20,293 bases of DNA. Origin: a virus. The notes below the pieces were generated by a model. It was not told the origin of the DNA. It did not search any database and saw only the letters and a program-made list of their open reading frames with translations. Shown one piece after another: positions 4,932 to 18,027 of the stretch. Each line of letters opens with the position of its first letter. Positions within the stretch are counted from its first letter, which is position 1. The stretch covers positions 1-20,293 of the IMG/VR virus record IMGVR_UViG_3300025418_000716; one strand, given 5' to 3'. A program made the position numbers and the translations under genes.

Positions 4932-5606
4932 ATGGCAGATCAGTCGATAACTCAATTACCAGTCGCTATCTCCGTAACGGGCGATGAACAAACTGTAATT
5001 GTACAAAGAGGCGTTACAAAGCAAGTACAAGTAAGTCTGATTGCTAACGCAGTATCACCTGGTAAGTTAATTACTAACGTAGTACTAAATGCTCAAAACT
5101 ATTTAGTATTTTATTACAGTGATGGAACAACTTCTACCACCGGCCCAATTCCTGGGTACACAAATGCAACAATTAATGGTGCTGGTCATTTAATTCTGAC
5201 CTTAACCACCGGCGGTACAGTTGACTGTGGTAATGTAGTCGGCCCACAAGGACCTACCGGACCAACGGGACCTGTAGGCCCCGCTGGAGCATCAGCTAGT
5301 GTAAATGCAGGTTCTGCAACAACACTACCTTATGGTTCTACACCAACAGTAACAAACGTTGGAACAACGCAAAATGCAGTGTTTAACTTCGGTATTCCAG
5401 CAGGTCAGCCCGGAGCTGGTGGCGCCACAATTGCAAACGACAACAGCACCAACGCAGTACGCTACCCTATTTTTACAGATGTAACCAGTGGCACACCAAC
5501 AACAGAGTACGTAGCATCTACACAATTACAGTTTAACCCCGGAGCTGGCACATTGACAACTCCCATCGTTACAGCCACCACCGGTATCGGCGGCGGAATA
5601 TTTTAA
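4932..5606 (+). CDS. Fibre-like protein with a short collagen-like segment
   Basis: A 224-residue protein. Residues 1-45 (SITQLPVAISVTGDEQTVIVQRGVTKQ) match an N-terminal module common in phage tail fibres, probably for virion attachment. Residues 104-120 are five to six Gly-x-y triplets with Pro (GPQGPTGPTGPVGPAGA), able to form a trimeric collagen-like helix. A strand-rich segment follows (TPTVTNVGTTQNAVFNFGIP), a typical companion of phage collagen repeats, with a second Gly/Pro stretch at 155-164. The C-terminus ends GIGGGIF, resembling the GGTF ends at 6974 and 18027. It has no clear ribosome site of its own, starts 2 bases after the previous stop, and shares one reading frame with the next four genes. 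Confidence 0.72.
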   Translation: MADQSITQLPVAISVTGDEQTVIVQRGVTKQVQVSLIANAVSPGKLITNVVLNAQNYLVFYYSDGTTSTTGPIPGYTNATINGAGHLILTLTTGGTVDCGNVVGPQGPTGPTGPVGPAGASASVNAGSATTLPYGSTPTVTNVGTTQNAVFNFGIPAGQPGAGGATIANDNSTNAVRYPIFTDVTSGTPTTEYVASTQLQFNPGAGTLTTPIVTATTGIGGGIF

Positions 5607-5615
5607 GGTAAATAC

Positions 5616-6974
5616 ATGGCTCAGTCTGGCTATACCCCCATACTAATATACAGCTCCACGACAGCGTCTAACGCGCCGTCTGCGGCTAACCTTACCAACA
5701 GCTCTTCCGGTTCTGAGCTGGCTATTAACGTTACTGACGGCAAGCTGTACTACAAAGACAATACCAACGCTGTTCAAGTTATTGCCTCTAAGAGCGCCGC
5801 ATCTGGTGCGTTTAGTTCAGTAAGTATTACTGGTGGCACAATTAACGGTACGGCAATCGGCGGGTCTACACCAGCAGCCGGTGCGTTTACCACGCTATCT
5901 TCTAGCGGTTTAGCGACCCTTAACAGCCTGTCTGTAACTGGTCTGACTGGTTACCTATACGCTAACGGCGCAGGCGCTGCTACGGCCTCTACAACGATTC
6001 CTACGACCGCTTTGAGCGGCACAATCAGTAACGCCCAGTTGGCAAATAGCTCAATCACCATTGGCACCACTGGAATTTCGTTAGGCAGCACAGCGCTAAC
6101 ACTAGCTGGCCTAACCAGCGTTACAGTAACACAAGACCCAGTAAGCGCACTTCAATTAGCTACTAAACAGTACGTTGATAATATTGCTTCCGGTTTAAGC
6201 ACTAAAGCACCGGTCTACGTAGCTACAACAGCAAACATTACCCTGTCTGGCGAGCAGACTATTGATGGCTTCTTGACATCATCAAGTCGTGTTTTGGTTA
6301 AAAACCAGACAACCCAGTCGCAAAACGGTATCTACGTATCGTCTTCAGGCGCATGGAGCCGCTCATCTGATGCAAACACTTGGAACCAATTGGTTTCTGC
6401 GTACGTGTTTGTTGAAGTCGGAACTACACAGGCGGACACCAGCTGGGTATGTACAGTAGACCCGGGTGGCACATTAGGAACTACACCTGTTACTTGGGTA
6501 CAGTTTTCCGGTGCAGGTACATATACTGCCGGTACTGGTTTAACTTTAACTGGTACTCAGTTTAGCATCACTAACACAGCGGTAACAGCAGGTAGCTACA
6601 CACTAGGAAACTTTACTGTTAATGCTCAAGGTCAGTTAACTGCTGCGTCTAGCACATCAACAACCGGTTCTGGCAACGTAGTACTTGCAACCAGCCCAAC
6701 ACTGGTTACTCCTAATTTGGGCACACCTAGCGCCTTGGTTGGTACTAACATTACTGGCACAGCGGCTGGCTTGTCAATTGGTGGTAATGCAGCAACAGCC
6801 ACGACAGCTACTAACGCAAGCAACGTGGCAATAACTACCGGCGCAGCTACAACAAACTACTTGACGTTTGTTACTGCAACAACAGGCAACTTGCCAGTGT
6901 TAACAAACACCAATTTAACTTATAACTCGTCCACCAACGCAATCACTGGTGGCATTGCAGGAGGCACGTTCTAG
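5616..6974 (+). CDS. Tail fibre protein
   Basis: A 452-residue Ser/Thr/Gly/Ala-rich fibre. Residues 1-55 (SGYTPILIYSSTTASN, then ELAINVTDGKLYYKDN) form a module also present at the start of the next gene. A low-complexity shaft follows. About residues 172-190 (DPVSALQLATKQYVDN) and 195-290 (VATTANITLSG, VLVKNQTTQSQNGIYVSSSG, WSRSSDA) are a well-known domain of phage tail fibres and appendages. The rest is Thr/Ala-rich repeat typical of fibre shafts, ending AGGTF. GGA-GGC in that ending forms a strong AGGAGG ribosome site (6959-6964) for the next gene. The TAG stop is followed directly by the next ATG, in frame. Confidence 0.82.
   Translation: MAQSGYTPILIYSSTTASNAPSAANLTNSSSGSELAINVTDGKLYYKDNTNAVQVIASKSAASGAFSSVSITGGTINGTAIGGSTPAAGAFTTLSSSGLATLNSLSVTGLTGYLYANGAGAATASTTIPTTALSGTISNAQLANSSITIGTTGISLGSTALTLAGLTSVTVTQDPVSALQLATKQYVDNIASGLSTKAPVYVATTANITLSGEQTIDGFLTSSSRVLVKNQTTQSQNGIYVSSSGAWSRSSDANTWNQLVSAYVFVEVGTTQADTSWVCTVDPGGTLGTTPVTWVQFSGAGTYTAGTGLTLTGTQFSITNTAVTAGSYTLGNFTVNAQGQLTAASSTSTTGSGNVVLATSPTLVTPNLGTPSALVGTNITGTAAGLSIGGNAATATTATNASNVAITTGAATTNYLTFVTATTGNLPVLTNTNLTYNSSTNAITGGIAGGTF
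6959..6964 (+). promoter_or_regulatory. Strong Shine-Dalgarno encoded in the C-terminal codons of a fibre gene
   Basis: AGGAGG lies 10 bases before ATG 6975 and is formed by the codons for Ala-Gly-Gly in the final AGGTF of the previous fibre. With the TAG stop touching the ATG, this site makes separate initiation of the second fibre likely. Confidence 0.8.
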
Positions 6975-7610
6975 ATGGCACAAAGCGGCTACACACCAAT
7001 AGCGCTTTACTATAGCGCAACAGCAAGTAACACACCGTCGTCTGCCAATCTGGTAAACGGTGAGTTAGCAATTAACATTACAGACGGCAAACTGTATTAT
7101 AAGAACAATGGCGGTGCAGTTCAAGCTATCGCTATTTTGTCTCGTACAAACGGTAATTTTAGTGATCTCACCGGTGCAATTACTGTAGCAAAAGGTGGAA
7201 CTTCAGCACAACCAGCTAGCCCAGTAACCGGTATGATCCGCTACAACACGGATACATTCCAGTTTGAAGGCTACGCCGGTAGCTCCCCATCATGGTTGCC
7301 AGTGGGCGGTTCAGTAATTAGCAATGATACCTCTACAGCAAGTAATTTGTATCCTATTTTTGCTAATGCAACATCCGGTACAGCTACTACAGTTTATACT
7401 AGTAACGCCAAATATTTATACAAACCATCTACTGGTGAATTACAATCATCTATTGTAAATGCCACAAACGGCATTCATGTAAATAGCCAAACAGTATCAG
7501 TAAGTTATACTATTGCATCTGGCTCTAGCGGATCAAGTGCTGGCCCCATTACTGTGGCAAGCGGTGTAACTGTAACTGTTTCCAGCGGCTCTCGCTGGGT
7601 TGTTTTATAA
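6975..7610 (+). CDS. Tail fibre protein, short, N-terminus homologous to the preceding fibre
   Basis: A 211-residue fibre whose first 55 residues (MAQSGYTPIALYYSATASN, ELAINITDGKLYYKNN) match the preceding protein at most positions, although the DNA has diverged. ITVAKGGTS and GMIRYNTDTFQFEGY (about residues 70-100) are classic fibre motifs, the second common near fibre heads. The C-terminus TVSSGSRWVVL matches a short ending seen on many phage fibres (S-G-S/A-R-W-V-(V/I)-L). There is no S74 domain. It starts directly after the TAG of the previous gene, so the two would fuse in frame if that stop were read through. It may be a short fibre or a foot that joins longer ones. Confidence 0.8.
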   Translation: MAQSGYTPIALYYSATASNTPSSANLVNGELAINITDGKLYYKNNGGAVQAIAILSRTNGNFSDLTGAITVAKGGTSAQPASPVTGMIRYNTDTFQFEGYAGSSPSWLPVGGSVISNDTSTASNLYPIFANATSGTATTVYTSNAKYLYKPSTGELQSSIVNATNGIHVNSQTVSVSYTIASGSSGSSAGPITVASGVTVTVSSGSRWVVL

Positions 7611-7619
7611 GGAAATCAC

Positions 7620-9023
7620 ATGTCAAGTTTAGTAATTGCTGGCGATACATCGGGGTCAATCACCCTCCAAGCCCCATCCACAGCGGGCAGCACAGTCTTA
7701 AACCTCCCAGCCGTATCAGGCACACTAGCCCTCACTTCCGGCTCACAAACCTTCACCAACCTCACAGTCACCAATGACGCTTCTATATCAGGTCTTACTG
7801 TTGGTAAGGGTGGAAATTCGTATAACACAGTATTTGGTTATCAAGCTGCTGCTGTAGCAACAGGTGGCTCTAATTTAGCTATAGGTTATCAAGCATTAAA
7901 TGCTACTACCTCATCTGCTGGAAATACTGCTGTTGGTGATTATAGGGCTTTATACGCCAATACTACAGGTGCAAACAATACAGCACTTGGAAATACTGCT
8001 TTAACTTCAAATACAACTGGTAGCAGTAATGTGGGCATTGGTTATCAATCACTTTACTCAAACACCACCGCATCTAATAACACAGCAGTTGGTCATCAAG
8101 CTGGGTATAGTAATACGACTGGAACTTACAATACGCTACTTGGTATGCAAGCAGGTTATTCATCAGCCACTAATAATGGCTTAACTGCATTAGGGTGGCA
8201 AGCTGGTTATGCAAGCACAGCAGATGGAAGTGTTTATGTCGGTTCTCACGCTGGATATGCTGCAACTGCTACTCATAATACTTTTCTTGGTGCAGATTCA
8301 GGATACCTTGTAACTTCAGGTGCAGCCAATACTATTCTTGGTCGCTTTAGTGGCAACCAAGGCGGTCTAGACATTCGTACAGCAAGTAACTACATTGTGT
8401 TATCTGATGGTGATGGTAATCCTAGATTGATTAGCGATAATATTGGTAGGGTTTATGTTGGATTAACTGCTACTGCTGGATATTTAGATGGATATTTAAC
8501 AGTTCAATCAACTGGCACAAATCCTGCAATTACTGCAGCAACAAATTCAAGCGGAAGTGCAACACAATTTGTTTATTCTGCTTGGGCTCCTTTCAATAGC
8601 GGTAATAATGTGTTTCATAGTTTTGAAACAGAAACATCACCAACAATAAGAGGAACTATTTCTTATAATCGTGCTGGTGGTTTAGTTGCTTATAACACCA
8701 CATCTGACCAAAGACTTAAAGAAAATATTGTTGATGCGCCTTCTGCATTGTCTAAAATTAATTCTGTTCAAATTCGCAGTTTTGATTGGAAAGAAACAGG
8801 CAATCACAATGATTTTGGCGTAATTGCTCAAGAATTACATCAAGTTGCTCCTGAATGTGTTACCGAAGGTCAAGACAACGAAGATGGAACAATGAAATCC
8901 CCATGGGCTGTAGATACATCAGCTTTAGTGCCAGCACTTATTAAAGCTATTCAAGAACTCAACACCTTAGTAACAACCCAAGCAGCCGAAATTGCGGCAC
9001 TCAAAGCTAAAGTAGGAGCGTAA
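7620..9023 (+). CDS. Tail fibre with YadA-like head repeats and S74 intramolecular chaperone
   Basis: A 467-residue fibre. The first 45 residues (TSGSITLQAPSTAGSTVLNL) are a common attachment module. Residues about 68-245 hold some 11 repeats of the YadA/trimeric-adhesin head type (xNTAVG-YQAL-SNTTG pattern), which build a left-handed trimeric beta-roll. A receptor-facing segment follows (about 250-355). Residues 361-467 are an S74 peptidase/chaperone domain starting TSDQRLKENI, with the expected Ser362/Lys367 pair, GVIAQEL at 400-406 and a C-terminal coiled coil (ALIKAIQELNTLVTTQ). In this family the domain assembles the trimer and then cuts itself off before the conserved Ser. The final codons contain AGGAG, the ribosome site of the next gene. 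Confidence 0.88.
   Translation: MSSLVIAGDTSGSITLQAPSTAGSTVLNLPAVSGTLALTSGSQTFTNLTVTNDASISGLTVGKGGNSYNTVFGYQAAAVATGGSNLAIGYQALNATTSSAGNTAVGDYRALYANTTGANNTALGNTALTSNTTGSSNVGIGYQSLYSNTTASNNTAVGHQAGYSNTTGTYNTLLGMQAGYSSATNNGLTALGWQAGYASTADGSVYVGSHAGYAATATHNTFLGADSGYLVTSGAANTILGRFSGNQGGLDIRTASNYIVLSDGDGNPRLISDNIGRVYVGLTATAGYLDGYLTVQSTGTNPAITAATNSSGSATQFVYSAWAPFNSGNNVFHSFETETSPTIRGTISYNRAGGLVAYNTTSDQRLKENIVDAPSALSKINSVQIRSFDWKETGNHNDFGVIAQELHQVAPECVTEGQDNEDGTMKSPWAVDTSALVPALIKAIQELNTLVTTQAAEIAALKAKVGA
8056..8120 (+). repeat. Near-identical DNA block shared by two fibre genes, copy 1
   Basis: These 65 bases match 10493-10557 at 61 positions, and the first 34 bases are identical. Both copies encode SNTTASNNTAV-type head repeats. 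The DNA identity is far above that of the other head repeats in the two genes, which points to recent gene conversion or recombination. Confidence 0.85.
9014..9018 (+). promoter_or_regulatory. Shine-Dalgarno encoded in the AKVGA end of an S74 fibre gene
   Basis: AGGAG is read from the Val-Gly-Ala codons at the end of the fibre gene and lies 8 bases before ATG 9027. The same arrangement occurs at 9983-9987 (6 bases before ATG 9994) and at 11469-11473 (7 bases before ATG 11481). Confidence 0.8.
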
Positions 9024-9026
9024 GAC

Positions 9027-9992
9027 ATGGCATCAATTCTCAGTGCAGGAACCTCAAGCGGCACAGCACTAAACCTCACGGGCGACACTAGCGGCATCCT
9101 CCAGCTCGCCAGCAATAACGGCACTGTAGGCTTGACGATGGATACAAGTCAAAACATTGGTATTGGTACTACTAGTCCTGCTTATAAATTAGATGTTTCA
9201 CAAAATATTGCTGGTGAAGGTGCAATTCAAATTACAAATGCTAATGCTGGAACATCGGTTATTTCAGAATTCAGAGCAAGTAATGGAACTAACTTTGCTC
9301 TTTATGGAATAGGTGGAACTGGCTATTCAACATACGCACAAATCAGAGCTAATGCTGCAGTAATTTATTCCAACACATCAGCAGGAGTTGGAATTAGTTC
9401 AGACAATGCTTCTGGTTATATCACTTTTGGTACAGGTTCTTCTGCTCCTGAACGGATGCGTATTGACTCTAGTGGTAATTTGTTGGTTGGTACTACAACA
9501 AGTGCTGGAGGTTCTGCTCCTCATGTAAAAGCAGCTTTAGGAATTAACACACGCTCTGGTCAAGGTGGTTCTTATGGTGGTAATTTATACAATCTGTATT
9601 GGACTGGCTCTGCCATGCAATTATGGGTTGATTCTTCGAATTTAGGAAACATTAGCGTTACCTCTGATTATCGTATTAAACGAAATGTTGAAACACAAAC
9701 TACACCTGCTTTAGAAAGAATAATGGCTTTAAGACCCGTTACCTATCAAATGGCTAATTATGGTGATTTGTTTAAAGCTAGTGACGATATTAAAGAAGGT
9801 TTTATTGCTCACGAAGTTCAAGAGATAATTCCTAGCGGAGCAGAAGGTGTAAAAGATGCTGAAAATCAAATTCAATCTTTGCGTTTAGATGCTCTTTGTT
9901 CTGTAATGGTTAAAGCAATCCAAGAACAACAAGCCCTTATCACCACATTGCAGACTCAAGTAGCTGCCCTTCAAGCAAAAGTAGGAGTTTAA
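9027..9992 (+). CDS. Tail fibre with S74 intramolecular chaperone
   Basis: A 321-residue fibre. The N-terminus (GTALNLTGDTSGILQLASNN) is a common fibre-attachment module, followed by IGIGTTSPAYKLDV and, at about 139-156, SSAPERMRIDSSGNLLVGTT, both stock fibre shaft motifs. Residues 211-321 are the S74 domain: VTSDYRIKRNV with Ser213 and Lys218, GFIAHEVQEIIP, and a terminal coiled coil ending QAKVGV. The domain diverges from those of the neighbouring fibres (SDYRIK rather than SDQRLK) and belongs to the longer ALERIMALRPVTYQM type, so it was probably acquired separately. It starts 3 bases after the preceding gene and in the same frame, with AGGAG at 9014-9018 as ribosome site. Confidence 0.87.
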   Translation: MASILSAGTSSGTALNLTGDTSGILQLASNNGTVGLTMDTSQNIGIGTTSPAYKLDVSQNIAGEGAIQITNANAGTSVISEFRASNGTNFALYGIGGTGYSTYAQIRANAAVIYSNTSAGVGISSDNASGYITFGTGSSAPERMRIDSSGNLLVGTTTSAGGSAPHVKAALGINTRSGQGGSYGGNLYNLYWTGSAMQLWVDSSNLGNISVTSDYRIKRNVETQTTPALERIMALRPVTYQMANYGDLFKASDDIKEGFIAHEVQEIIPSGAEGVKDAENQIQSLRLDALCSVMVKAIQEQQALITTLQTQVAALQAKVGV

Positions 9993-9993
9993 T

Positions 9994-11478
9994 ATGTCCC
10001 TTATTCTGAGCGGAACAAACGGTATAACATCCCCCGGCGGCGACACAGGCGCAGCAGACTTTACCATCAATGGACTTACTGTTGGTAAGGGTGGTGGTAG
10101 TGTAAGCAATAATACGGCATTTGGTGTAAGTGCTTTAACATCAAATACTTCAGGTGGCACAAATTCGGCATTTGGAATACAAGCTGCCTATTCAACTACA
10201 TCTGGAAATAGTAATACTGCTGTAGGCGCAACAGCACTTTATTCAAATGTTAGCAATAGTGATAGCACAGCAGTTGGCTATCAGGCGCTTTTTACATCCA
10301 CAGGCGGTAGTAATACAGCAGTAGGTTCTCATTCTTCACAATTAACTACTACTGGCATATATAATGCTTCTTTTGGCAGATATTCTTTATATAGCAATAC
10401 CACAGGCGGTTCAAATACTGCTATTGGCGATTCTGCTATGTATCCAAATACAACTGGTTCAAATAACACAGCAATAGGACAATCTGCTCTTAACTCAAAC
10501 ACCACCGCATCTAATAACACAGCAGTAGGTTATCAGGCTGGTTATAGTAATACGACTAATTCAGCATTAACTGCTATAGGATACCAAGCTGCATATGCAA
10601 GCACAGGTGGTAGCGTTACTGCTGTTGGTAATTTGGCTGCTGGAACAGCCACTACTGCTACAGGATTAACAGCCGTTGGTAATGCTGCACTTCGATACAC
10701 TACAACAGGTTCATACAATACGGCAATAGGTAGTGGTGATGCAACACAATATCCACCATTGTTTTTCAACACTACTGGAACTCATAATATTGCAATTGGT
10801 GTTCAAACTTTTTACACAAACACCACAGGTTCTTACAATACAGCAATAGGTGATTACGCACTTCAAGCAAACACTACCGCCAATTACAACACAGGATTAG
10901 GTTATCAAGCTGGTTATAACATAACAACTGGATTAGCCAATTTATGTTTAGGAAGTGCATCAGCAGGCTCTTTAACTACAGGCAGTAACAATATTTATAT
11001 GGGGCCGACAACTGCTTCTTCAGCAAGCGTTGGTCAAGAATTTGTTTTAGCTGCAACTGCTGGTTCTGCTGTAGTTGGAAAAGGAACAAATACTGGTTAT
11101 ATCTATTGTGGTGGTGGTGGCGTATATCAAGGCAATAATTCTGCAACTTGGTCTATTACATCTGACCAACGCCTTAAAAAGAACATTGTTGATAATACAG
11201 TCGGACTTGATGCCATCAATAAAATTCAAGTTCGCAATTTTGAATACCGCACAGCAGATGAAGTAACCGATTTGCCTAAAGAAAATGCTGTTGATATCAA
11301 TGGTGTTCAACTCGGTGCAATCGCACAAGAGCTTGCTTTAGTATTGCCAGACTGTGTAAAAACCGAATCTACTGGTGTAATGTCTGTAGATACATCAAAT
11401 ATCACATGGCATTTAATTAATGCTGTAAAAGAACTATCCGCAGAAGTAACCGCACTCAAAGCTAAATTAGGAGCATAA
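9994..11478 (+). CDS. Tail fibre with long YadA-like head-repeat shaft and S74 chaperone
   Basis: A 494-residue fibre, paralogous to 7620-9023. INGLTVGKGGGS (about residues 25-36) opens some 17-18 YadA-like head repeats (about 38-337), each with an (N)NTA(I/V)G core, more than the 11 of its paralogue, so the shaft should be longer. Residues 388-494 are the S74 domain: ITSDQRLKKNIVD with Ser390 and Lys395, then GAIAQELALVLPD and a C-terminal coil ending LKAKLGA. The DNA shares near-identical blocks with the paralogue (see repeats). The ribosome site AGGAG (9983-9987) lies in the end of the previous gene, and AGGAG at 11469-11473 serves the next. Confidence 0.88.
   Translation: MSLILSGTNGITSPGGDTGAADFTINGLTVGKGGGSVSNNTAFGVSALTSNTSGGTNSAFGIQAAYSTTSGNSNTAVGATALYSNVSNSDSTAVGYQALFTSTGGSNTAVGSHSSQLTTTGIYNASFGRYSLYSNTTGGSNTAIGDSAMYPNTTGSNNTAIGQSALNSNTTASNNTAVGYQAGYSNTTNSALTAIGYQAAYASTGGSVTAVGNLAAGTATTATGLTAVGNAALRYTTTGSYNTAIGSGDATQYPPLFFNTTGTHNIAIGVQTFYTNTTGSYNTAIGDYALQANTTANYNTGLGYQAGYNITTGLANLCLGSASAGSLTTGSNNIYMGPTTASSASVGQEFVLAATAGSAVVGKGTNTGYIYCGGGGVYQGNNSATWSITSDQRLKKNIVDNTVGLDAINKIQVRNFEYRTADEVTDLPKENAVDINGVQLGAIAQELALVLPDCVKTESTGVMSVDTSNITWHLINAVKELSAEVTALKAKLGA
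10493..10557 (+). repeat. Near-identical DNA block shared by two fibre genes, copy 2
   Basis: This is the partner of 8056-8120: 61 of 65 bases match and the first 34 are identical. A second exact 20-base match between the same two genes lies at 7794-7813 and 10075-10094, where the head-repeat shafts begin (GLTVGKGG). Confidence 0.85.
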
Positions 11479-11480
11479 AA

Positions 11481-11813
11481 ATGACAACAACATACACAAC
11501 TACCATTAACTCGATGTTCACAGTAAACACACCCGACCCTGATTATGTGGTTAATGTGCTCTTTACTGTATCTGGCACAGACGGCACTCATACTGCCTCT
11601 ATTGACGGCAGCATCCAATTTGCCCAAGAAGCTAAAGAGTCAGGGTTTATTCCTTACGCTAACTTAACCGAAGCTATCGTATTAGGCTGGATTAATGAAG
11701 CTACTGACAATCAGGCTAACTACTACGCCAACATTGACGGTCAAATTGCATCAATCATAAACCCACCAGTTAGCCCACAAAACACACCACTTCCTTGGGC
11801 AACAGCTAAATAA
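11481..11813 (+). CDS. Conserved phage protein of unknown function following the fibre genes
   Basis: A 110-residue soluble protein. It matches a small widespread phage family with an N-terminal strand region (TINSMFTVNTPDPDYVVNVLFTVSGTDG), a middle with FIPYANLTEAIVLGWINEA and a fixed C-terminus (IDGQIASIINPPVSPQNTPLPW). I believe Pfam lists this as a domain of unknown function, but I could not check the accession. The genes usually sit beside tail-fibre genes, so a fibre-assembly or minor-virion role is plausible but unproven. The ribosome site is the AGGAG formed by the end of the preceding fibre gene. Confidence 0.72.
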   Translation: MTTTYTTTINSMFTVNTPDPDYVVNVLFTVSGTDGTHTASIDGSIQFAQEAKESGFIPYANLTEAIVLGWINEATDNQANYYANIDGQIASIINPPVSPQNTPLPWATAK

Positions 11814-12052: not shown

Positions 12053-12279
12053 ACGAAATTCTTAAACAACTCTTAACTGGCAAAGATAACACCACCTACG
12101 ATATTGGCCGTGTTACATGGTTAATTGGTATGGTTGCCGTTATCCTATTAGCCTTTTATGAGGTAATGCACAACACCGTAAGTATTCGTGAACTGGCTGA
12201 GTCATTAGGAATTGTCTCAGCTGCTGGTGGAGCCAGTGTGGCCATGAAGGGCCGCACAGAGCCTAATGGGGAACAATAG
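12049..12279 (+). CDS. Putative holin
   Basis: A 76-residue protein starting at GTG 12049, overlapping the previous gene's stop. It opens with LLTGKDNTTYDIGRV, a signature of small holin-like proteins in phages of Proteobacteria, then a strong membrane helix (about 21-41, VTWLIGMVAVILLAFYEVM) and a weaker Gly/Ala-rich second helix (about 50-67, SLGIVSAAGGASVAM), ending in a charged tail (KGRTEPNGEQ). Small size, two possible helices and a position just before the spanins and endolysin support a holin. Paired with a SAR endolysin it could be a pinholin, which would only need to depolarise the membrane; that is an inference. Confidence 0.68.
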   Translation: MNEILKQLLTGKDNTTYDIGRVTWLIGMVAVILLAFYEVMHNTVSIRELAESLGIVSAAGGASVAMKGRTEPNGEQ

Positions 12280-12749
12280 TGCCGTATAAAGATCCAGCTA
12301 AAAATGCAGCTTGTAAACGTGCTTGGTATTTGAATAACAAAGAAAAAGAACACGCAAGAGTTCGTGAATGGAACAAAAACAACCCCGAATGGATTAAAGA
12401 ATACCAAAAACAATACAATAAAAAGAACGCCACTAAAAAAGCAGAACAGTCTAAAAACTGGAGAGAAAATAACAGAGCAAAATACAACTCACTGCAAGCA
12501 AAACGCCGAGCAATCAAACTACAAGCAACACCACTTTGGTTAACAAAAAAACAAATTAACGAAATTAACGAGTATTATGTAATGGCTAAAGAATTAGAAA
12601 AAGTTTTTCCTTGGCCGCAACACGTAGATCATATATTTGCATTGCAGGGTTTTGATATCTGTGGGTTACATGTACCTTGGAACTTGCAAATTTTATCACA
12701 AAAAGCAAATTTAGAAAAAGGTAATAGGTCAGACCTATGTTCCCATTAG
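12279..12749 (+). CDS. HNH endonuclease, free-standing
   Basis: A 156-residue protein starting at GTG 12279, which overlaps the holin's TAG by one base. The N-terminus (MPYKDPAKNAACKRAWY) and the Lys/Asn/Glu-rich helical first 85 residues match phage HNH homing-type nucleases. The catalytic block is at 116-150: VDHIFALQGFDICGLHVPWN with D117-H118, then N135 and N144 in NLEKGNR, an H-N-N variant of the motif. Its function would be DNA nicking or cleavage, possibly homing. It is more Lys/Asn- and A-rich than its neighbours, suggesting a later arrival in the lysis cassette. The next gene starts inside its last 13 bases. Confidence 0.85.
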   Translation: MPYKDPAKNAACKRAWYLNNKEKEHARVREWNKNNPEWIKEYQKQYNKKNATKKAEQSKNWRENNRAKYNSLQAKRRAIKLQATPLWLTKKQINEINEYYVMAKELEKVFPWPQHVDHIFALQGFDICGLHVPWNLQILSQKANLEKGNRSDLCSH

Positions 12750-16758: not shown

Positions 16759-18027
16759 ATGACTACTCCAGTTTACGTATCACCTTTTACAGGAACCGTT
16801 GTTACAGCAACAGATGTGTCTTACTATGCTCTTGCATTTAGTTCAAATACACAACTTTTTTGGCCTTCTACAGTTAATAATTCTCAAACTCCTGCTGCAA
16901 GAATTATTGATTGCGTTGCTTCTTCTTCTGGCCTGTCTATTGCTCTTCCTCCAGGTAATCAAGGGACATTAGGTGCCGATATTCTGTTTCGTAACTTAGG
17001 TGCTCAAGCATTTACTGTTACAGATTACGATAGCGGCGCTTCATTTACTGTTCCTGTTGGTATATCTAAATACGTTTATTTAGTAGATAACACTACTGAA
17101 GCTGGTGTTTGGCATAATGTAACTTTTGCAGCTGGAACATCATACGCAGATGCAGCATCATTAGCTGGTTCTGGTTTAACAACCATATCTGGTAAATTAG
17201 CAACATCACAAAATCCTGTTGATTTAACATCATCTCCGGTAATTAACGATGCCAGCCGTGCGGCTACATTTGTTTGGAATGGAGGGGCTGGAACATTTAC
17301 ACTTCCAATTGTTTCTAGTTTATCAGCAGGTTGGTTTATTGGGTTTCGTAATAACGGAACAGGTTCTTTAAACATTAATCCGGTATCTCCAAATACTATT
17401 AATGGTTTAACAACTATTGTAGCAAACCCCGGCGATTCTGGTTTTATTATGTTGGATACCAACAGTGGTGGTTTTATTACCGTAGGATTAGCGCCAGTAA
17501 ACAATGTAACTTTTACAGCGGCAACATACGACGTTGATACCATTCCGGGTAACACATTTAGCTTAACTTCTTTTGCCCCAATTATTCAGACTTATATTGC
17601 ACAATCTGGTACACGTACTAGCACTTTAGCAGTAACATTACCCGCTATTACTCAAATTTATATTCTGGTTAATAACACAAACCAAACTGGCTATAATATT
17701 ACGTTCCAAAATCAAGGAAGCTCACAACCTCCTTTAATACTATCGGCCGGCACAGTTCAAACAATTCTTAGCGATGGTTTAAACCTTTATCCTTTAACTA
17801 CCTCGTCTGCTGGTTTATTTTATGCAGCAAATGGTACAGCTTCTGTTCCATCATATTCTTTTAATAATGACACTGCAACAGGTATGTATCTTGTAGGTTC
17901 TTCTATTCTTGGATTGACAGCTAACGGCCATGAAATTATTCAAATGGATAATTCAAACTTGTCCGCACCTCTTGTAACTGTAAACGCAACATTAAACGCA
18001 CAACTTATTGATGGTGGGACGTTCTAA
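16759..18027 (+). CDS. Fibre-like / appendage protein within the tail module
   Basis: A 422-residue beta-rich protein with repeating units in the middle that share a pattern of short strands around Gly/Asn turns (WFIGFRNNGTGSLNINPVSP; YILVNNTNQTGYNITFQNQG; ADILFRNLGAQAFTVTDYDS). Each unit has (I/L/F)xx(R/N/V)NxGxxx(F/L/I)x(I/V)xx, as in trimeric fibre or appendage shafts. The C-terminus (SVPSYSFNNDTATGMYLVGS, EIIQMDNSN) is a stock fibre motif, and the protein ends DGGTF, like the fibre at 5616-6974. It lies between the adaptor and hub genes, so it may be a fibre anchored at the tail, or a hub-associated appendage. The ribosome site is AGGAA; the stop touches the next ATG in frame. Confidence 0.72.
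   Translation: MTTPVYVSPFTGTVVTATDVSYYALAFSSNTQLFWPSTVNNSQTPAARIIDCVASSSGLSIALPPGNQGTLGADILFRNLGAQAFTVTDYDSGASFTVPVGISKYVYLVDNTTEAGVWHNVTFAAGTSYADAASLAGSGLTTISGKLATSQNPVDLTSSPVINDASRAATFVWNGGAGTFTLPIVSSLSAGWFIGFRNNGTGSLNINPVSPNTINGLTTIVANPGDSGFIMLDTNSGGFITVGLAPVNNVTFTAATYDVDTIPGNTFSLTSFAPIIQTYIAQSGTRTSTLAVTLPAITQIYILVNNTNQTGYNITFQNQGSSQPPLILSAGTVQTILSDGLNLYPLTTSSAGLFYAANGTASVPSYSFNNDTATGMYLVGSSILGLTANGHEIIQMDNSNLSAPLVTVNATLNAQLIDGGTF

Follow-up and report, generated by a model that had tools for sequence, protein, structure and literature searches.

The 3′ end of Peptidase_S74 phage fibre genes as a probable two-purpose boundary

The 3′ end of the Peptidase_S74 (S74) fibre genes described here probably is a two-purpose boundary (rough probability 0.8). 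The same short stretch would form the end of the chaperone helix and hold the Shine-Dalgarno sequence (SD) of the next gene, and it would at the same time act as a boundary for mosaic exchange. The last 50-90 nt of these genes, comprising the C-terminal helix and the SD, are found as a discrete block on S74 domains that are about 40% identical, and before unrelated genes. The mobile unit is thus the 3′ end, which is smaller than the fibre gene. All SDs mentioned here are predicted from a match in the sequence alone.

Three S74 fibre genes and their endings

The window (the whole stretch of DNA that was analysed) is an IMG/VR virus record of 20.3 kb, in which the structural genes are densely packed and all lie on the same strand. 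Three consecutive genes of the plus strand code for S74 fibres: fibre 1 (7620-9023, 467 aa), fibre 2 (9027-9992, 321 aa) and fibre 3 (9994-11478, 494 aa). Each contains a C-terminal Peptidase_S74 chaperone domain (at about 8703-8861, 9663-9836 and 11161-11361, respectively), followed by a C-terminal helix. The three fibres score 55.2, 38.9 and 40.6 bits with the Peptidase_S74 HMM (PF13884), versus a curated cut-off of 22. At the cleavage site the motif T-S-D-x-R-x-K is invariant in 3/3 window fibres, so that the Ser-Lys dyad, five residues apart, is present. The dyad of MYRF has the same kind of spacing (S578/K583, PMC3742443). From their membership of the family, the window fibres can be expected to undergo autocleavage and to release the C-terminal chaperone.

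The fibres terminate in ALKAKVGA, ALQAKVGV and ALKAKLGA, each directly before the stop codon, which confirms the ending type (K/Q)AK(V/L)G(A/V) given at 9023, 9992 and 11478 in a preliminary description of this DNA. In all three cases the next ATG lies 1-3 nt past the stop, and the final codons of the fibre contain AGGAG: at 9014-9018 in fibre 1 (8 nt before ATG 9027), at 9983-9987 in fibre 2 (6 nt before ATG 9994) and at 11469-11473 in fibre 3 (7 nt before ATG 11481), all on the plus strand. The 27-base end of fibre 1 (8997-9023, plus strand) contains the common 15-mer GCACTCAAAGCTAAA and is identical to 11452-11478 at 25/27 positions, exactly the two differences claimed before. Folding of the three junction RNAs yields little structure at the start sites (z of +2.4, +1.7 and +0.7), which is suggestive only.

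The gene downstream of fibre 3 (11481-11813, plus strand) belongs to DUF7936 (PF25590) and has its probable SD inside fibre 3. Small DUF7936-like genes are located immediately 3′ of the S74 fibre in 76/212 S74 loci (about a third), distributed over 20 S74 clusters. They are a recurrent fibre partner. Further downstream, a small ORF with a GTG start (12279-12749) has the look of an HNH-type endonuclease by its residues.

A second ending type, GGTF or GGIF, had been described as equivalent, with Gly codons supplying an AGGAG-like sequence 6-10 bases before the next ATG. This holds for the three S74 ends and for 6974, and fails at 5606 and 18027. In the GGIAGGTF end of gene 5616-6974, AGGAGG is found at 6959-6964 (plus strand), 10 nt before ATG 6975. 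At 5606, about 18 nt separate the Gly codons (GGCGGCGGA) from the ATG; here the spacer (TAAGGTAAATACATG) probably provides the SD for 5616 instead, as AAGG across stop and spacer (5605-5608, plus strand). The GGTF end of gene 16759-18027 (18013-18027, plus strand) reads GGTGGGACGTTCTAAATG and lacks AGGAG. The peptide is conserved in the family of this gene, where the Gly codons vary freely without SD bias: the GGAGG codon pair occurs in 0/49 homologous ends with a near ATG. Among GGxF ends outside the 16759 family, 15/20 have GGAGG if the start is near and 0/24 if it is spaced. GGTF was rejected as a general SD carrier on the basis of 5606 and 18027. The GGTF set mainly reflects conservation of the peptide, and among the three cited sites it supplies an SD at 6974 only.

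The neighbouring fibre genes 5616 and 6975 have a common N-terminus, MAQSGYTPI...LAIN(V/I)TDGKLYYK, i.e. a duplicated adaptor start. Starts of this MAQSGYTPI type repeatedly come after GGxF ends.

Codon and peptide choice at homologous S74 ends

S74 ends were gathered from viral contigs, together with fibre relatives and a separate set that was fetched with the chaperone body alone. A start is called near when the next ATG lies within −4 to +4 of the stop, and spaced when it is about 5-30 nt away. An SD match is a match of at least 4 nt to TAAGGAGGTGA in the last 18 nt of the gene. Such a match is found in 94% of the 185 near-start S74 ends and at 4% of internal offsets, versus 0/28 ends with the start 5-25 nt away. 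The same can be observed in the set fetched by chaperone body, with 90% of 39 near ends and 11% of 9 spaced ends, which replicates the result. Across the sets, 90-94% of near ends carry the SD, compared to 4-14% of internal positions and 0-11% of spaced ends. The expectation that the SD is conserved beyond the need of the peptide, and lost when no near gene follows, is borne out at these ends. In spaced ends the SD usually lies in the spacer instead, and S74 ends without an embedded SD often carry one there (e.g. SAGVAGF and the stop, then TAGGAGAATTAAATG). The distance between SD and start is constant, with a mean of 6.6-8.3 nt over start offsets from −4 to +3; only one end, with offset 0, departs from this (9 nt).

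Ten S74 relatives, mostly from cultured phages, have annotated neighbours and broadly fit the near-start rule. In MEP301 (TTGGAGGCTAAATAATG), ctpbd312, Synechococcus MA01 and Ochrobactrum OC the next start is near and the end is SD-like; both features are absent from CRP-1, CRP-7, ctfne034, P-SSM2 and the convergent Escherichia phage bob. HTVC111P departs from the rule, since its next start is near but its end contains no SD. The S74 relatives on bacterial genome contigs (L321-L350) mostly have distant neighbours and no clear embedded SD, a contrast that is qualitative only. Two single ends stand apart. In L182 (GCTAAGGTAGGAGCATAA) the tail SD is retained though the next start is 29 nt off and has its own AAGGAG, possibly as the relic of a recent change of neighbour. 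In L089 (AGGAGCATAAAATTACCG) ATT replaces the expected near ATG; this may be a non-standard start or a lost one.

The signal extends to the choice of synonymous codons. In a synonymous shuffle of 163 clusters with the codon use of these genes themselves, the observed SD frequency at near ends was 0.91, versus 0.58 expected. Where no start is near, the two values coincide (0.24 and 0.24). One and the same peptide even switches its codons with the position of the next start. Genes ending in LExx before the stop use TTG/CTG-GAG in 34/45 near cases versus 1/24 that are not near (p=5e-9), and the GGxF ends described above behave likewise. In KxG ends the Gly codon is GGA in 58/67, versus a background of 24%. 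Among [VLI]Gx ends, GGA remains the usual codon even where no start is near (5/8), which counts against a codon switch in this ending. Overall, these data argue for selection at the RNA level on S74 ends, as had been proposed.

The choice of peptide shifts as well. The SD frequency expected from the shuffle is 0.61 in near S74 tails versus 0.22 in spaced ones, and the corresponding values for other genes, 0.35 and 0.20, differ less. The peptide thus yields to the need of the RNA more in S74 tails than elsewhere. This fits the earlier suggestion of a tail that would be discarded along with the chaperone and hence be free to serve the RNA.

The 3′ block and its competing explanations

For the analysis of the block, pairs were selected in which the chaperone bodies have less than 60% amino acid identity and at least 9/10 tail residues are alike. 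In 50 such pairs, tail codons 5-14 (counted from the end) are all identical wherever the residue is shared; from the synonymous identity of their bodies, 2.7 such pairs would be expected. This synonymous-codon test is unaffected by peptide-based fetching. In those pairs the block extends a median of 74 nt to the left and 4 nt to the right of the stop. Pairwise re-alignment of the block pairs gave a median body identity of 42% and 16 tail haplotypes. A short near-identical stretch with unrelated flanks on both sides, in different genomes, is what is expected of a recombination linker, and the 3′ end has probably been swapped by recombination.

In the window, the portable block of fibre 3 covers 11428-11478 (plus strand). 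In the fetched loci, 27 HSPs end 0-9 nt past this stop, and their left ends cluster 30-50 nt upstream. At the two fibre-fibre junctions the block is longer. The fibre 1/2 block (8941-9179, plus strand) comprises the C-terminal helix, the SD and the start of fibre 2, with HSPs ending at about −82/−92 and +156/+176, and recurs on other contigs with different fibre bodies to either side. The fibre 2/3 block (9912-10093, plus strand), from −80 to +101/+147 of 9992, is likewise common to other contigs. A portable boundary at the stop codon, as claimed earlier, is therefore found at 11478, whereas the blocks at 9023 and 9992 also include the beginning of the next gene. The idea of the fibre gene as a plug-in cassette needs a similar correction: the ending does carry the ribosome site of the neighbour, but the unit is the 50-90 nt end and not the fibre gene, since the bodies are only about 40% identical.

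Tails of at least 90% identity with both a different body and a different neighbour were found in 94 pairs of S74 ends, versus 2 pairs among all other gene ends; as many loci were fetched by tail-peptide pattern, these and the other block-sharing counts are not rates, and the pairs are mutually non-independent. A block shared with a different body is seen in 15/56 ends of one viral-contig set and in only 1/79 of the broad set fetched by chaperone body. Block sharing therefore belongs to a narrower phage group around the window. The ending LQTQVAALQ(A/T)KVGA, as on S74 fibres, also occurs on an ORF (L232) that did not score as S74 in the search.

Tight packing by itself could account for part of these results: any gene with a near neighbour must house the SD of that neighbour, and S74 tails would be nothing special. 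The pattern has been published for 530 genomes (PMC2784483), and on the same contigs other genes of at least 250 aa with a near start also contain the SD, in 57% versus 19% in the internal control. The S74 genes are clearly stronger, with 92%, and an SD match of 5 or more is found in 61% of them versus 26% of the other genes, a gap that may be somewhat smaller in reality because the other-gene control may include long ORFs that are not genes. Tight packing also leaves unexplained the larger peptide-level shift of S74 tails and the agreement of different S74 domains in synonymous codons beyond the SD. As a full explanation it is conceivable and somewhat unlikely. A conserved coiled-coil peptide together with host codon bias, without any recombination, is improbable as the source of the shared endings. 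ALKAKxGA is indeed frequent, and in many pairs one peptide is encoded by different codons, most pairs having 3-5/10 identical. Against this stand the 50 fully identical tails, the sharp ends of the block (at about −50/−80 and at the stop) and the hybrid tails of four loci (L157, L092, L093 and L164).

These hybrids bear on a third explanation as well, in which the SD is a property of a moving downstream gene and the fibre C-terminus merely accommodates it. In the four loci a helix of the fibre-1 type is joined to an end of the fibre-3 type, TTAGGAGCATAA, with its neighbour, so that the switch occurs inside the ending. At 9023 and 9992, too, tail and next start move together. The comparison of pairs points the other way. 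When the coil is shared and the neighbour differs, 67% of pairs (56% if the pairs are disjoint) agree in all of the last four codons; when the neighbour is shared and the coil differs, 5-6% do so, with a background of 9%. At other thresholds an identical SD block is found in 29-70% of coil-shared pairs versus 0-12% of neighbour-shared pairs, the latter side comprising few pairs (4-34). The SD haplotype tracks the fibre coil (56-70% at a coil identity of 90% or 85%) and not the downstream gene (0-12%, at or near background), so in most cases the neighbour receives its ribosome site from the ending, in agreement with the preliminary description. An SD carried by the downstream gene was rejected as the rule on account of these low values and is kept as a minority case; as a general account it is hardly likely. 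The hybrid ends themselves may stem from a crossover in the shared 15-mer, with which they are consistent.

Proposed mechanism and known systems

In the two-purpose reading, the ending would serve the protein as the final turns of the C-terminal helix in its intramolecular chaperone. For the RNA, it would be the SD of a next gene starting −4 to +4 nt from the stop, as suggested by its position, the codon bias, the complementary spacer SDs and the constant spacing. Termination of the fibre and initiation of this gene are probably coupled. As the chaperone part would be cleaved away and lost (release as presumed for the family), the ending may tolerate changes of codon and residue that keep GGAG or AGGAG at the right distance, in line with the statistics above. 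As an exchange boundary, the ending would act through the helix and SD block that is present on differing chaperone domains and before differing neighbours. Since this block of 50-90 nt is common to differing S74 genes and neighbours, a gene joined behind it would find a ribosome site ready.

A stronger and rather doubtful proposal is that the discarded S74 tail is a dedicated 3′ adapter, selected both as exchange homology and as ribosome site. If this were true, fibre genes could be added, dropped and reordered in tandem arrays with the expression of the next gene intact. The two-purpose ending itself suggests a route by which phages may exchange host-recognition genes and still express the gene that follows, by means of an RNA signal that sits on a part of the protein expected to be discarded. 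It also gives a clear prediction of the sites where fibre genes can be joined. The S74 ends further offer a replicated case in which the needs of translation initiation appear to shape both codon choice and the C-terminal peptide.

That an SD may lie in the upstream gene is a general principle and already published (PMC2784483). Eyre-Walker (1996, cited in PMC2784483) described an SD housed in the 3′ end of the upstream gene, and Palleja et al. (2009) reported SD presence of about 56% for neighbours 1-4 nt apart in 530 genomes, with a spacing of 5-8 nt being disfavoured (PMC2784483). As in the S74 ends, the spacing of 1-4 nt places the SD within the coding end of the upstream gene, where the use of codons and of stops is adapted to it. 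The frequency is about 90% here versus about 56% there, though SD criteria differ between the studies. Here, moreover, the SD is concentrated in one domain family and its influence extends to the choice of residues. The embedded SD of S74 tails is thus a strong case of a known principle. What is new is that SDs are concentrated in the S74 tail, that they influence even the choice of peptide, and that a discrete portable 3′ block exists. Translational coupling (reviewed in PMC12548453) likewise involves short spacing or overlap and an SD near the upstream stop; here it is a prediction from the sequence.

The T5-like fibres LtfA and LtfB share with the window fibres the PF13884 endosialidase-type chaperone, the cleavage-site motif, the C-terminal helix and the tandem arrangement, and their host range has been switched by recombination (PMC4728585). 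No RNA role of the 3′ end was found reported for Peptidase_S74 or LtfA/LtfB in the literature searched. Mosaicism of tail-fibre domains (PMC10684548) is similar in that fragments are common to otherwise different fibres, but here the shared piece is an end of 50-90 nt that ceases at the stop codon. A close precedent is provided by the boundary sequences of mosaic phages, where a short 3′ end is common to adjacent or different genes: genes 67 and 68 of mycobacteriophage Island3 have common C-termini of 18 residues, a probable crossover site (PMC3029335). In contrast to that case, the boundary described here also holds a predicted ribosome site and recurs on many S74 fibres.
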